From Candidatus Hydrogenedentota bacterium (GTDB taxonomy: Bacteria > Hydrogenedentota > Hydrogenedentia > Hydrogenedentales > SLHB01), in NCBI GenBank assembly GCA_020847495.1, contig JADLCA010000447.1:1-32808 (forward strand): a stretch of DNA of 32,808 nt. Direction: 5' to 3'. Each line of letters starts with the position of its first letter. The stretch's first letter is position 1. Positions 5,292 through 32,747 of this stretch are shown here, in pieces. The position numbers and the translations under genes are program-made. The notes under the pieces are model-generated. The model saw only the letters and a list, made by a program, of their open reading frames with translations, was not told the DNA's origin and made no database searches.

Positions 5292-5354
5292 GGGGCGCGC
5301 CCCCGCCCATGAAGGGCGGCCGGTGGACACGGACGTGCACGGACCGGCACGGAC

Positions 5355-5440
5355 ACATCCCCCTCGACCGTGCGGGCCTGCCCCCTTCAAAGGGGAACCT
5401 TGTGCGCGCGCCCTTCGGGCCGCGCGTTTTTGCGGCCCAT
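5355..5440 (+). repeat. Family-3 element, partial (left half)
   Basis: acatccccctcgaccgtgcgggcctgcccccttcaaaggggaaccttgtgcgcgcgcccttcgggccgcg...gcggccc; closely matches 25856-25940. Confidence 0.85.
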
Positions 5441-5465
5441 GGCGTTCGTTTAATCATCCTGAAAA

Positions 5466-5588
5466 CGGCAGTTGAATGGGACTGATACCGACTTTCGCGT
5501 AGGCTTTGCGCGCCGAGACTCATCTCTCCCGGCAGCGAAACACGGTGTCTCTCCCTCGCACGTTAAACCCGAGCGCGTTCAACTGCCG
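5466..5588. repeat. Family-2 inverted-repeat element
   Basis: Outer inverted repeat CGGCAGTTGAA (5466-5476) / TTCAACTGCCG (5578-5588); interior GGGACTGATACCGACTTTCGCGTAGGCTTTGCGCGCCGAGACTCAT... shared with 22098-22181 and 24436-24511. Confidence 0.85.
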
Positions 5589-7882: not shown

Positions 7883-7930
7883 GATGGCGTCTCATTCTCC
7901 GTCAGCGGACGGCGCAAGTCAAGGACTGGG

Positions 7931-7974
7931 GGTCGGACGGATCGGTCCGATCCGTCCGATCCGTCCGATCGGTC
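7931..7974. repeat. 9-bp tandem repeat (GTCCGATCC)n, palindromic
   Basis: ggtcggacggatcggtccgatccgtccgatccgtccgatcggtc; related to 571-606. Confidence 0.75.
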
Positions 7975-7991
7975 TGAAATCTGTTTGCGCG

Positions 7992-9321: not shown

Positions 9322-9477
9322 ACGGAAGAGGGGTAGAGTCTCACGAGGGCGCGGCGCGCCCGTAACCAAACCGGGAGGTTCCTCCATCGATTTCACCGTT
9401 TTTGGAAAGAGACCCAGCAAGGGGGAACGGGTGTCTCGCCCGTGATTGGAATGCACTTCAATGCGGAGGTGCGGAGT

Positions 9478-14348: not shown

Positions 14349-14394
14349 GCATCTATGCTACACGGAGGGGCCGCCCGTTGCGAATCGGACTGAA

Positions 14395-14547
14395 GACACA
14401 GGCGAGGGCGCCTGTGCCACACGCGCTTGCCTTGCTTTGATTGCTTCTACTCTTCGTTCTGTTTCTGGTTTGTCCACAAGCACCAAGAATTCCGGATAGA
14501 CAAAGGACTGGAGATAGACGTGTGGCACAGGCGCCCTCGCCTGTGTC
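14395..14547. repeat. Family-1 inverted-repeat element, 153 bp
   Basis: Perfect 28-bp TIR GACACAGGCGAGGGCGCCTGTGCCACAC (14395-14422) / GTGTGGCACAGGCGCCCTCGCCTGTGTC (14520-14547); imperfect TIR extension into CGGACTGAA / TTGATCCG. Confidence 0.95.
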
Positions 14548-14673
14548 TTGATCCGGGCCGAATTCAGCGGATTGGACCGAGCAAACAAGAGATGCGAACT
14601 GCTATTGACCCCGCCGTCGTTGCGGGGCATGATGGGCGCGCATTGAGACGCGAATGCCAAAGAGGACCCTTCC

Positions 14674-16450: not shown

Positions 16451-17449
16451 CTACTGGCGCAGCGCCTCGGCGAGGCGGTCGGCCACGGCCTGGCGTCCGG
16501 TGTCGCGCAGGTGCTCATCGGGATGACTGCCGCGGATGAAGCAGGTTCCCGGCAATGCCTCGGACATGTCGAGCAGTTGCACGCCCCGCGCCGCGGCCGC
16601 CTGTTTGAAGTGCGCGATGTTCTCGCGTGCGCGTGCCCGAAAGCGGTCGCCGAGATAATGCTCTCCCGTTTCCATGTCCAGCGGCGTGACGTAGGGCAAT
16701 GCGCGAATCCCCGCGCGATTCAGCGCGTCCAACGCACGTCCGAACTCCACGAGGGTCTGGCTCTCCGGCGTCAGCGAATACATGTAGAAGAATGTGACGA
16801 GCCGGGCACGCTGCTCCTCCGTGGTGCGGGCCTCGGCATGCGGCTGGTAACTGCCCACTGGTCCGAGATTCGCGAAGCCATCCAGTACCGGTAGTTTCTG
16901 AAAGTCTTCTGTGAGAACAGGCCGGAACGTGAAAGCCTTGAATGACGCCAGGGGCCTGTAGGCCACGTGAAAAAGGACGTAGTCGTGACGCAGGAACAGC
17001 AGCTCCTTGTCAAAGTACCGGTAAGGCAGGGTCTCGAGTTGCGGCGCCACGAGACGCATGTTGATTGGAAACACGACAGTCCCGACGGGGACGTCCTTCT
17101 CTTCGAGATACGCGGCAACCGCCTCGTAGAAAGTCAGATTGCATCCCCCGTCGTAGACGTGAACGACACGAAGGTCCGGGGCGGCGCGCTGCAGCATCTC
17201 CGGCGTGCTGGAGAGATCCGCATCGCCCTTGCCCGTGGCCATGGTGCTATCTCCTAGAAACAACACGTCCGCAGGGTCATCGCGAAGCTCCATGATCTTG
17301 AGCACAGCTGGCGGGATGTCGCCCGGCCACTCCAACCAGTAGATTGCCATCTGCCCCGCGCACACGAGCGCAATCAACACGGCGCAGCGCGCGAAGAAGC
17401 GCAACCCTGCGCGGCGATCAGAACTGGAAGTAGATGAATGAGGCTTCAT
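16451..17449 (-). CDS. SGNH/GDSL hydrolase-like membrane-anchored protein (AlgJ/DltD-like partner of MBOAT)
   Basis: N-terminal TM then DVLFLGDSTMATGKGD (GDS block) and C-terminal CFIRGSHPDEHLRDTGRQAVADRLAEAL (DxxH block); overlaps the MBOAT gene. Confidence 0.8.
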   Translation of the reverse strand: MKPHSSTSSSDRRAGLRFFARCAVLIALVCAGQMAIYWLEWPGDIPPAVLKIMELRDDPADVLFLGDSTMATGKGDADLSSTPEMLQRAAPDLRVVHVYDGGCNLTFYEAVAAYLEEKDVPVGTVVFPINMRLVAPQLETLPYRYFDKELLFLRHDYVLFHVAYRPLASFKAFTFRPVLTEDFQKLPVLDGFANLGPVGSYQPHAEARTTEEQRARLVTFFYMYSLTPESQTLVEFGRALDALNRAGIRALPYVTPLDMETGEHYLGDRFRARARENIAHFKQAAAARGVQLLDMSEALPGTCFIRGSHPDEHLRDTGRQAVADRLAEALRQ

Positions 17450-18884
17450 TCACAACCCCCAAGTTCATGACGATGAGACACAGTAAGGCATAGGCGGGAT
17501 AACGCACCCATGCGGGACTCTCGTTGATTACGCGATCAAACCAGGGCTTCTCCGAGGCCCATTCGCCGATAAGGAGCACGGCGAGCGGCCAGCATATCGT
17601 GATGAGATTGTCCGGGTAGATGCGCAGGCGCGCTTCAAGCGCGAGCCAGCCTCCCGGACCCAGGAAGGCGTCCCAACCCTGGAATGAGCCCACACAGATG
17701 TACACGGCCTCCTTGATCGAGCCCGCGCGGAAGAAGACCCAGCCCACGTTGACCAGTGCGAAGGTGACCGCGATCTCGATCGCGGCGCGGACGCGCGGCA
17801 AGCGCGCAAGACCCGTCTTTGCGTAAAGCCACTTACGCGGCCGCGCGGTCCATTGCTGCGCGAGGTAGTAGGCGGCGTGCAGCAGGCCCCACACCACGAA
17901 GGTCCAGTTGGCCCCATGCCACAGCCCGCTGAGTCCGAACACGGCGAGGATATTGACGGATTGGCGGCCGCGTCCGGCCCGGTTGCCGCCCAGCGGGATG
18001 TAGACGTAGTCGCGGAACCACGTCGACAGCGAGATGTGCCAGCGGCTCCAGAATTCCTGGATCGAGCGGGCCGTGTACGGGCGGTTGAAGTTGCGCATGA
18101 GATCGACATTGAGCGTGCGGGCGGTGCCGATTGCGATGTCGGAATAGCCCGAGAAATCGCAGTAGATCTGGAACGCGAAGCAAACCGTCGCAATGATGAG
18201 GATGGGGCCTTCGAAGTGGAAGGGGGTCTCGTAAACGCGATTCACGACGATGGCGAGTCGGTCCGCAATCACCATCTTCTTGAAGAGGCCCCAAAGGATC
18301 AGGCGCAATCCGCTGTACATCAACTCCGAATCAAACGCGAAATGCTGCCTCAACTGGGGCAGCAGCGAACCGGAGCGCTCTATGGGCCCCGCGACCAGTT
18401 GTGGAAAGAAGGTCACGTAGAGGGCGAAGCGTCCGAAGTTGCGTTCCGGTTCTTGTCTTTCGAGAAAGACATCGATCGTATAACTCATGGATTGGAACGA
18501 GTAAAACGAGATGCCCACAGGCAGCAGCAGATTCATCAATGGAATGTCGGCCGGCAGATGCGCCAAGTCGCAGACCCACCCCGCGCTGCGCAGAAAGAAG
18601 TCGAGATACTTGAAGGTGAAGAGCAGGCCGAGATTGGACGACATGCTGAGGATGAGATACAGGCGCCGCCTGCGCGGGTCGCGCGTGGCCCCGAGGGCAA
18701 GCCCGGCCCAATAGTCGATTGTCGTGCTCATGAGGATGAGCACGATGTACGCGGGCTTCCACGCCATGTAGAACGCGTAACTCGCGGCCAGCAGGAATAC
18801 CCACTGCCAGCGCCACGGAAGGGAGAAACATACAATCAGCACGAGCGGGAAGAAGATCAGAAACTCGATACTGTTGAAGAGCAC
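17418..18884 (-). CDS. MBOAT family O-acyltransferase (AlgI-like)
   Basis: MLFNSIEFLIFFPLVLIVCFSLPWRWQWVFLLAASYAFYMAWKPAYIVLILMSTTIDY...FCDFSGYSDIAIGTARTLNVDLMRNFNRPYTARSIQEFWSRWHISLSTWFRDYVYIPLGGNR...LWHGANWTFVVWG (Y.DFSGYSD, RRWHISLS..F, LWHGA motifs). Confidence 0.96.
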   Translation of the reverse strand: MLFNSIEFLIFFPLVLIVCFSLPWRWQWVFLLAASYAFYMAWKPAYIVLILMSTTIDYWAGLALGATRDPRRRRLYLILSMSSNLGLLFTFKYLDFFLRSAGWVCDLAHLPADIPLMNLLLPVGISFYSFQSMSYTIDVFLERQEPERNFGRFALYVTFFPQLVAGPIERSGSLLPQLRQHFAFDSELMYSGLRLILWGLFKKMVIADRLAIVVNRVYETPFHFEGPILIIATVCFAFQIYCDFSGYSDIAIGTARTLNVDLMRNFNRPYTARSIQEFWSRWHISLSTWFRDYVYIPLGGNRAGRGRQSVNILAVFGLSGLWHGANWTFVVWGLLHAAYYLAQQWTARPRKWLYAKTGLARLPRVRAAIEIAVTFALVNVGWVFFRAGSIKEAVYICVGSFQGWDAFLGPGGWLALEARLRIYPDNLITICWPLAVLLIGEWASEKPWFDRVINESPAWVRYPAYALLCLIVMNLGVVNEASFIYFQF

Positions 18885-19012
18885 CGCGCCCCGCCCCTGT
18901 TGGAAAACATGAACCCGCGAGTGTTCCGGACACCTCCCCGCGCGAATCGCAGCACCTTACCGCAGGCGCGCGCGTGCGCGCAAATCGCGCGGGGGCCGGT
19001 GCGATCTGCGCG

Positions 19013-20901: not shown

Positions 20902-21777
20902 ATGGCAGAGGTGTGGATTTCCGATGTCCGCGAGAAGGTGTGGGCATTAGACGAGGTGGCCACCCTTCCTTCCACGCTGGTGCGCATCCTCTCCGTTGTG
21001 CAAGACGAATCCACGACCGCACTCGACCTCGCAGCGGAGATTTCCGCCGATCCCGCCTTGACGATGAAGATCTTGGGGACCGTGAATTCGAGTTATTATG
21101 GATTCCATCGCCAAATCAACAGTATCCCCGATGCCGTTGTCATCCTTGGATTTGACGAAGTCGAGCGGCTCGCGCTGGCCATTTCCGTAATCAACCTATT
21201 CGGCAGGGACCGCGAGAGCGCGCGGGCCCTGCACATGTTGTGGAGGCATAGCCTGGCGTGTTCGGTGGTGGCCGGCTGCCTCGAAACCCACTTCCGCTCC
21301 AGGCTTGCAAGGGTAAACGGCGCGCACATCGCAGGACTGCTCCACGATATCGGCAAGGCGGTCATCAACCAGTTCTTCCCCGAGGCGGTGGCGCCGGTGG
21401 CGCGGCTGGTGCAGGAAGACGGCCTCACGCTGTGTGAAGCCGAGCGGGAAATTCTGGAGGGCTGCACGCATTGCGAGGTCGGCGCGTGGGTGGCCGAGCG
21501 ATGGGCTCTGCCCAAGGATCTGGTGGAAAGCATTGCCATGCACCACACCCCGGAGTTGGTGCCCCCGGACCATCTGTTGACGCACACCACGCATCTGGCG
21601 GATGCCATCTGCAACCGGGTGGGCATCAAGACCATGAACACCGGTGTGCCCTGTGAAGTCTCGCCGAATCTCTCCCCCGAACTGGACGTGGACAACAATC
21701 TGGTCGCTCAGATCGAGCAGCGTCTCGACAAGCAGCGCGGCCTGATCAGCGCCATGGCCGCTGGCGGAGCCTACTGA
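20902..21777 (+). CDS. HDOD domain-containing protein
   Basis: VATLPSTLVRILSVVQDESTTALDLAAEISADPALTMKILGTVNSSYYGFHRQINSIPDAVVILGFDEVERLALAISV...HIAGLLHDIGKAVINQFFPE; HDOD signature. Confidence 0.95.
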   Translation: MAEVWISDVREKVWALDEVATLPSTLVRILSVVQDESTTALDLAAEISADPALTMKILGTVNSSYYGFHRQINSIPDAVVILGFDEVERLALAISVINLFGRDRESARALHMLWRHSLACSVVAGCLETHFRSRLARVNGAHIAGLLHDIGKAVINQFFPEAVAPVARLVQEDGLTLCEAEREILEGCTHCEVGAWVAERWALPKDLVESIAMHHTPELVPPDHLLTHTTHLADAICNRVGIKTMNTGVPCEVSPNLSPELDVDNNLVAQIEQRLDKQRGLISAMAAGGAY

Positions 21778-21893
21778 CGGGCAACGGACCCTGTGTTTCG
21801 CTGCGCCAGGCCGGACCGGCCGGGAGCGCCGGCATCCCTGCCGGCTCTTGGAGAGGCTTCCTCTCGCAAAGGCGCAAAGGCTACTCCAATAGA

Positions 21894-22046
21894 GACACAG
21901 GCGAGGGTGCCCGTGCCACACGCGCTTGCTTGGCCCGCAGGGATTCTCCCCATCTTGCCGTCCTTGGTTTGCACGGAGAATTCAAGCGTTTCAGAGAGGC
22001 GAGGTATGGTAGACGGACGTGTGGCACAGGCGCCCTCGCCTGTGTC
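21894..22046. repeat. Family-1 inverted-repeat element, 153 bp
   Basis: gacacaggcgagggtgcccgtgccacac (21894-21921) / gtgtggcacaggcgccctcgcctgtgtc (22019-22046); same length as the 14395 copy with a diverged core. Confidence 0.92.
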
Positions 22047-22097
22047 CCATTTCCATTTCCCGCAGGCAAGCCTCCGCTCCAGAAGTTAGTGCCATTC

Positions 22098-22181
22098 GGG
22101 ACTGACCCCGTCTTTCGCGTAGGCTTTGCGCGCCGAGACTCATCGCTCTCGGCCGCGAAACACGGGGTCTGTCCCCTCACC
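22098..22181. repeat. Family-2 inverted-repeat element
   Basis: GGGACTGACCCCGTCTTTCGCGTAGGCTTTGCGCGCCGAGACTCAT...CGAAACACGGGGTCTGTCCCCTCACC; ends inverted. Confidence 0.9.
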
Positions 22182-22190
22182 CATGACGGG

Positions 22191-24263
<2,073 letters not shown>

Positions 24264-24435
24264 AGGAATAATCGCGCCACGGTCCCCTCCGTACGCAACG
24301 GACTCTCATATGCGTGCGCAGTGCACAACGTCGATGGGCAACGGCCCCCATTCCGCTCGAACGACACGCGGCTTCGCGGGTGTCCCACAACTATCCGACA
24401 TCGTATGTATTCGCAAACACCAATTCAACCTAAAA

Positions 24436-24511
24436 CGGCAGTTGAATGGGACTGACCCCGTCTTTCGCGTAGGCTTTGCGGAGCGAAACACGGGGTCTGT
24501 CCCCTCACCCT
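24436..24511. repeat. Family-2 inverted-repeat element, short variant
   Basis: cggcagttgaatgggactgaccccgtctttcgcgtaggctttgcggagcgaaacacggggtctgtcccctcacc; internal segment missing relative to the other two copies. Confidence 0.9.
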
Positions 24512-25850: not shown

Positions 25851-26032
25851 GAAGAACATCCCCCTCGGCCCTGCGGGCCTGCCCCCTTCGAAGGGGGACC
25901 TTGTGCGCGTGCCCTTCGGGCCGCGTGATATGGCGGCCCACTGCCCCTGTGCAGCCATTGGATGCCGGATTTATCCACAAATATAGTGTTGCAAACGTCC
26001 CCCTTTGAAGGGGGTGTAGGGGGATGTTCTTC
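25851..26032 (+). repeat. Family-3 inverted-repeat element, 182 bp, full-length
   Basis: Perfect 15-bp TIR GAAGAACATCCCCCT (25851-25865) / AGGGGGATGTTCTTC (26018-26032); sub-terminal CCCCCTTCGAAGGGGG and CCCCCTTTGAAGGGGG palindromes. Confidence 0.95.
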
Positions 26033-32525: not shown

Positions 32526-32699
32526 GAAAGAACATCCCCCTGCACCCCCTTCAAAGGGGGACGTGCATAACTTCACAGTTATGGATTTGCGGCAATGCTT
32601 GGGGTCGCACAAAGGCTTCGGATCACCGGCATATGAAGGCCCGAAGGGCCTCTTGCGTCCCCCTTTGAAGGGGCAGGCCCGCAGGGCCGAGGGGGATGT
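32526..32699 (-). repeat. Family-3 inverted-repeat element, reverse orientation
   Basis: gaaagaacatccccct (32526-32541) ... gcgtccccctttgaaggggcaggcccgcagggccgagggggatgt; its right end is the reverse complement of the left end of 25851-26032. Confidence 0.9.
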
Positions 32700-32747
32700 G
32701 AGGGCAACCAAGCGGCCCCTGATTCAAATCAACGGAGAACATCGAAC

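Follow-up and report, generated by a model that had tools for sequence, protein, structure and literature searches.

What are the 153-bp repeats of this Candidatus Hydrogenedentota genome, and what multiplies them? The stretch of DNA analysed here (the window, 32,808 nucleotides) carries one of them at 14395-14547, which an earlier note had taken for a MITE-like element of a possibly undescribed family. We conclude with high confidence that it is a REPIN, a doublet of REP hairpins that depends for its multiplication in trans on a cognate RAYT, most likely the one encoded on another contig of the same genome (C237), which is itself flanked by REPINs on both sides. The REPIN is a non-autonomous unit, made up here of two inverted REP hairpins with a GTGG foot around a free spacer roughly 95 bp long.

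The 28-bp terminal inverted repeat previously described is in fact perfect over 31 bp (14393-14423 and 14519-14549), and with its outer AA and TT the copy in focus spans 14393-14549. Its ends, 14395-14422 (+) and 14520-14547 (-), are perfect copies of a 28-mer, GACACAGGCGAGGGCGCCTGTGCCACAC, 153 bp from end to end; at up to three mismatches this 28-mer has seven matches in the window, with none expected from 100 shuffles, and the conserved REPIN ends read AAGACACAGGCGAGGGCGCCTGTGCCACACG. Each end folds alone, as had been proposed, into a perfect 8-bp stem with a 4-nt loop and no bulge, within the range of REPIN palindromes (20-40 nt, stem of 6-13 bp, short loop), and is preceded on its 5' side by the REP foot GTGG, here within GTGTGG, which is of the GTRG type. 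Oriented foot first, the left REP (14395-14422, minus strand) consists of the foot at 14417-14422, assigned by cross-phylum comparison, and the hairpin at 14397-14416 (CACAGGCG-AGGG-CGCCTGTG); the right REP (14520-14547, plus strand) runs from its foot at 14520-14525 into the hairpin at 14526-14545 and on to the outer TCTT (14546-14549), whose CT dinucleotide is a candidate cleavage site. The feet of both REPs thus face inward: GTGTGG is on the spacer side of each hairpin, which makes the doublet a tail-to-tail one (PMC3733652).

Between the REPs, the spacer (14423-14519) varies among copies: mean pairwise identity across 68 doublets is 91% for the ends and 44% for the cores, bearing out the earlier impression of conserved ends around divergent cores. 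Folded as single-stranded DNA, the focal element reaches -50.4 kcal/mol (z = -9.7), an energy that we attribute to the long inverted repeat because the 68 cores show no excess structure (mean z +0.2). A structured core was ruled out on the same value, and a search of the window for structured-RNA families found no Rfam match. Counts of stop-free runs say nothing about a coding core, since it is only about 95 bp long.

Two further copies lie in the window, both anticipated by the earlier note. The second 153-bp REPIN (21894-22046), with two mismatches in its left end, is located where an HDOD gene (20902-21777, +) and a PAS histidine kinase gene (22191-24263, -) converge, between their 3' ends. 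A tandem dimer (613-893) with REPs at 615-642, 743-770 and 864-891 is bordered by a ThiG gene (ORF 110-520, +) on one side and a glycosyltransferase gene (893-2017, -) on the other; its middle REP, with three mismatches, is a hybrid in which both arms are inner arms (GTGTGGCACAGGCG...CGCATGTGCCACAC). All three window copies, for which extragenic position was scored, are intergenic between Pfam-supported genes, one of them between convergent genes, and the focal copy occupies a divergent promoter region (14349-14673).

Other repeats share these intergenic spaces. Arrays of a 9-bp word (ATCGGACCG / ATCGGACGG) occur at 567-604 and 7923-7978. Of 96 REPIN sites, 12 have such an array within about 110 bp, and the density of the motif is 2.5 matches per kb near REPINs versus 0.13 per kb at 400-1000 bp from them. 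REPINs might prefer such arrays as targets, and the intergenic siting of both may account for part of the enrichment. Another family, GGGACTGACCCCGTCTTTCGCG...GCGAAACACGGGGTCTGTCCC, is present at 5462-5555, 21784-21812, 22082-22175 and 24432-24510; because its motif is also found on a contig with a Y1 gene (L034, C417), this could be a second family linked to a transposase. Members of a third, CCCCCTTTGAAGGGGG / ACATCCCCCT, lie at 5354-5439, 25856-25940, 25973-26031, 32528-32586 and 32658-32700.

How widespread is the hairpin? The genome-wide count that had been suggested as a check gave 223 occurrences of the 20-base hairpin (at most two mismatches) in the window's own genome, here G000 (6.9 Mb in 800 contigs, 81% complete), and none for the reversed-pattern control; the focal element is one of over a hundred copies there. 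Among 60 genomes of the genus, family and order, 320 copies were counted in the congener G001 and three in the congener G002; most of the others lack the hairpin, and G016, G030 and G052 contain mainly stems with two mismatches such as CACAGCCGAGGGCGGCTGTG, with one exact copy in G016. Among the fetched loci we distinguished 89 clusters for G000 and 23 for G001, which include seven triplets, all tandem forms. Two-hairpin clusters are oriented +- in 68 of 71 cases, -- in three and -+ in none, with start-to-start spacing of 121-134 bp (mode 129), so that both the high copy number and the inverted doublets of fixed spacing expected of REPINs are present. Many one-hairpin clusters lie close to contig ends, as expected because repeats break assemblies. 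Alignment of the flanks of 66 doublets, also proposed beforehand with target-site duplications in mind, revealed none (mean best match 2.56, compared with 2.47 for shuffled partners).

The enzyme had been predicted to act from elsewhere, as no transposase was visible in the window. Indeed, no Y1 transposase was found on the window's contig, and Pfam scans of nine ORFs, through which other transposase types were checked, showed none. G000 encodes 13 Y1_Tnp genes, of which one, on contig C237 (L043:1333-1890), has the family hairpin in its fetched surroundings; at the other 12 loci no family hairpin was found nearby, even with four mismatches allowed. This ORF of 185 amino acids is framed by two complete copies of the 153-bp element (about L043 1105-1257 and 1899-2051), one stopping about 75 bp before the ATG and the other beginning about 9 bp after the stop codon, which is the RAYT flanked by its own repeat that the earlier note had recommended looking for and which supports mobility in trans. 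The protein just reaches the cut-off of the NCBIfam model NF047646 REP_Tyr_transpos (80.1 bits, cut-off 80), matches the solved structure of TnpA-REP (PDB 4er8) with E = 5e-4, and carries the motifs of Y1/HuH enzymes, D-H-V-H (DHVH), WQDESFDH (WQ) and YICENP (Y..NP), with HVH, WQ and Y-NP conserved. Among the subclass motifs tabulated in PMC6006769 the nearest is 2.7, and exact agreement is found with none. Another RAYT of G000 (L041, contig C233) has hairpins of its own on its flanks (CATGGGCTTCCAGCCCATG, with a GTGG foot), and G000 therefore contains more than one REP-RAYT pair.

Between G000 and the sister genome G001, against which the window was compared in 20-kb pieces, several REPIN sites differ. 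An element-free site lies at 7938-7948 of the window, where G001 has a REPIN dimer of about 300 bp between the orthologues of 7937 and 7949, although the exact junction is blurred by the 9-bp repeats. The comparison with relatives that had been called for thus revealed an empty site in the window, but for the focal copy no clean empty counterpart was found in G001: homology ends at 14388, and on the side corresponding to window 14389-14603 G001 holds 2.6 kb that are 74% similar to window 16454-18897, reflecting either a paralogous duplication or a loss on the window side. A decayed REPIN at L166:16463-16623 of G001 is absent at position 9329/9330 of G000 contig C780; because G000 keeps GAAGACACA there, insertion followed by loss is indistinguishable from insertion adjoining GAAGACACA. 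Elsewhere the sisters differ in the state of the element. A G001 doublet (L166:363-511) corresponds to a single hairpin of two outer arms on G000 contig C359, a singlet that is expected because exchange between two REPs would yield that form. The reciprocal product would be a REP with two inner arms, as found in the middle of the window dimer (743-770). A tandem dimer of G001 (L170:9795-10073) is matched by one unit on G000 contig C578.

The sisters also differ in their RAYTs. At the G001 locus syntenic to C237 the outer REPs are kept with no RAYT between them. The only close RAYT found in the G001 assembly, at 65% identity, has REPIN-like units with a different stem, CACAGCCG...CGGCTATG, on its flanks. 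This stem forms a smaller population in both genomes, and the G000 locus syntenic to that RAYT (contig C536) has neither RAYT nor REP, with a member of the CCCCCTTTGAAGGGGG / ACATCCCCCT repeats instead. From these syntenic loci it follows that each sister has a RAYT that its counterpart lacks at the corresponding position; gain and loss both fit, and a copy may lie elsewhere in the unassembled part of either genome. The hairpin repeat AAGAGCCGGCAGGGATGCCGGC is found between the two REPs of the RAYT-less G001 locus (L275 1231-1524, contig C181) and is enriched beside REPINs, occurring in the flanks of several of them.

The main weakness of the enzyme assignment lies in G001 itself, whose 320 copies have no assembled cognate enzyme: no RAYT flanked by the CACAGGCG hairpin was found in this assembly (93% complete). 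Could another RAYT then be responsible for moving the REPINs, be it an enzyme absent from the 81% complete assembly of G000 or the CACAGCCG type acting on both stems, with the C237 gene merely lying between REPINs? The G001 copies speak for such an arrangement, as do the 12 further Y1 genes of G000 and the fact that the CACAGGCG and CACAGCCG stems share foot, loop and most stem positions. We nevertheless regard it as unlikely: the family hairpin is lacking around those 12 genes, two-sided matching hairpins are common among the relatives of the C237 enzyme, and with roughly one REPIN per 60 kb, two-sided flanking within 100 bp would very rarely arise by chance (by our estimate on the order of 1e-5 for 13 genes).

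A MITE in the usual sense is a shortened DDE insertion sequence with terminal inverted repeats and target-site duplications. The length-conserved, perfect terminal inverted repeats of 28-31 bp around cores of 44% identity would suit a deletion derivative of this kind, yet target-site duplications of fixed length are absent, each end is a hairpin with the GTRG foot common to RAYT-linked REPs of other phyla, and in the fetched loci the sole transposase gene found between two copies is the RAYT. We therefore rejected this origin, which is now very improbable, on the lack of target-site duplication and the REP foot; of the earlier description, the repeat family stands, and its terminal inverted repeats are REPs. 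The hairpins might instead persist through a host role, as transcription terminators or stabilisers of mRNA 3' ends, with mobility a matter of the past. Such roles are known for REPs in other bacteria (PMC8266576, PMC3733652), and the intergenic position of the window copies, one of them between convergent genes, is in keeping with them. Against this stand the copy numbers of 320, 223 and 3 within one genus, sites that differ between sister species, a core without structure signal, and a focal copy in a divergent promoter region, and we consider persistence through a host role quite improbable; the repeats could still serve the host, as a secondary use is compatible with all of these points.

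How might the favoured system, a REPIN multiplied by the C237 RAYT, operate? Characterised TnpA-REP enzymes cut at CT beside the folded REP via a tyrosine and then rejoin strands (PMC8266576). By analogy, the C237 enzyme would recognise the folded REP in single-stranded DNA by its foot, stem and loop, its tyrosine would cut at the CT within the conserved outer TCTT, and the cut strand would be joined to a new intergenic site, leaving no target-site duplication. The two hairpins nearly copy each other in either direction, and homologous exchange between them could then collapse doublets to outer-outer singlets or expand them to dimers with an inner-inner middle.

Do enzyme and hairpin travel together beyond this genus? 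A scan of genome contigs for relatives of the RAYT yielded 80 loci from many phyla, most with hairpins beside them. The CACAGGC hairpin was not found beside close relatives, and hairpins emerged once any stem was allowed: matching hairpins, defined as the same 7-bp stem on both sides with one mismatch allowed, flank 56 of 93 RAYT loci, a pattern seen in only 1 of 60 stretches that lie 1 kb away and served as a control. Read as the four bases before the stem, with hairpins oriented by the pyrimidine loop, the foot is mostly GTGG or GTAG (G 87%, T 86%, G/A 97%, G 94%). Between close enzymes 0.26 of 7 stem positions are mismatched, between distant ones about 2.5, and stem difference is correlated with RAYT distance (Mantel r 0.21, a value as high arising in 2 of 2000 permutations). 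The same stem can also recur with distant enzymes, since two loci of Verrucomicrobia (L100 and L106) carry the 20-base hairpin of the present family unchanged, CACAGGCGAGGGCGCCTGTG or its complement, beside RAYTs that are only about 35% identical to the Hydrogenedentota enzyme, which may reflect convergence of the stem or transfer; stem identity alone is for that reason no proof of cognacy. We speculate, as a tentative and still doubtful extension, that the C237 enzyme represents a lineage of RAYTs that spans Hydrogenedentota, Planctomycetota, Acidobacteriota, Deltaproteobacteria, WOR-3, Sumerlaeota, Verrucomicrobiota and others and corresponds exactly to no published subclass motif, that the REP stem follows the enzyme as a readable code, and that sister species differ by the gain and loss of entire REPIN-RAYT-REPIN units, at odds with the view of RAYTs as stable single-copy genes.

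These results place an expanded REPIN-RAYT system in Hydrogenedentota and explain hundreds of hairpins there, which also seem to break metagenome-assembled genomes, since many contigs terminate within them or close by. The sister pair, each with a RAYT that the other lacks, offers a natural test of REPIN populations with and without their enzyme, and the 56 RAYT loci with matching hairpins provide enzyme and hairpin pairs for the study of how RAYTs read hairpins. The family is new for this lineage, as the earlier note had supposed, and our literature search found no work joining Hydrogenedentota with repetitive extragenic palindromes; as a kind, however, REPs and REPINs have been on record since 2010-2013 (PMC2817692, PMC3116915, PMC3733652).

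Among known systems, the closest parallels are the REPINs of Pseudomonas fluorescens SBW25 (PMC3116915) and GTAG REP dimers (PMC3733652), which share the inverted doublets, fixed spacing and free spacer, the hundreds of intergenic copies, a RAYT flanked by the same REPs, singlet remnants and tandem clusters. By contrast, the foot here is GTGG rather than GTAG, although most GTAG-20 elements of O. terrae have been recorded with GTGG (PMC3733652), only doublets with the feet inside (TT) occur, the spacer is about 95 bp, and the host phylum is Hydrogenedentota. TnpA-REP of E. coli and its BIMEs (REPtron Ec; PDB 4er8) have in common with the present system a Y1/HuH enzyme related in sequence and a substrate of foot plus hairpin, but the 8-bp stem here is perfectly palindromic and free of bulges, as in group 3 REPs, and the DHVH / WQ / YICENP motifs lie nearest to subclass motif 2.7 of PMC6006769 without matching any exactly. 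TIRYTs and TIRtrons (PMC3733652), reported in Acidobacteria as well, are likewise Y1 genes flanked by inverted repeats; their terminal inverted repeats, many with GGGGWSAS, are unrelated to GTAG REPs, whereas the repeats described here are REPs with a GTRG foot. IS200/IS605 elements and their derivatives, for which tnpB was looked for in the ORFs adjoining the C237 RAYT gene, share the Y1 chemistry, the subterminal hairpins and the lack of target-site duplication, but the C237 protein scores 22.5 bits against NF033573 (cut-off 55) and has the motif Y..NP in place of Y...Q.
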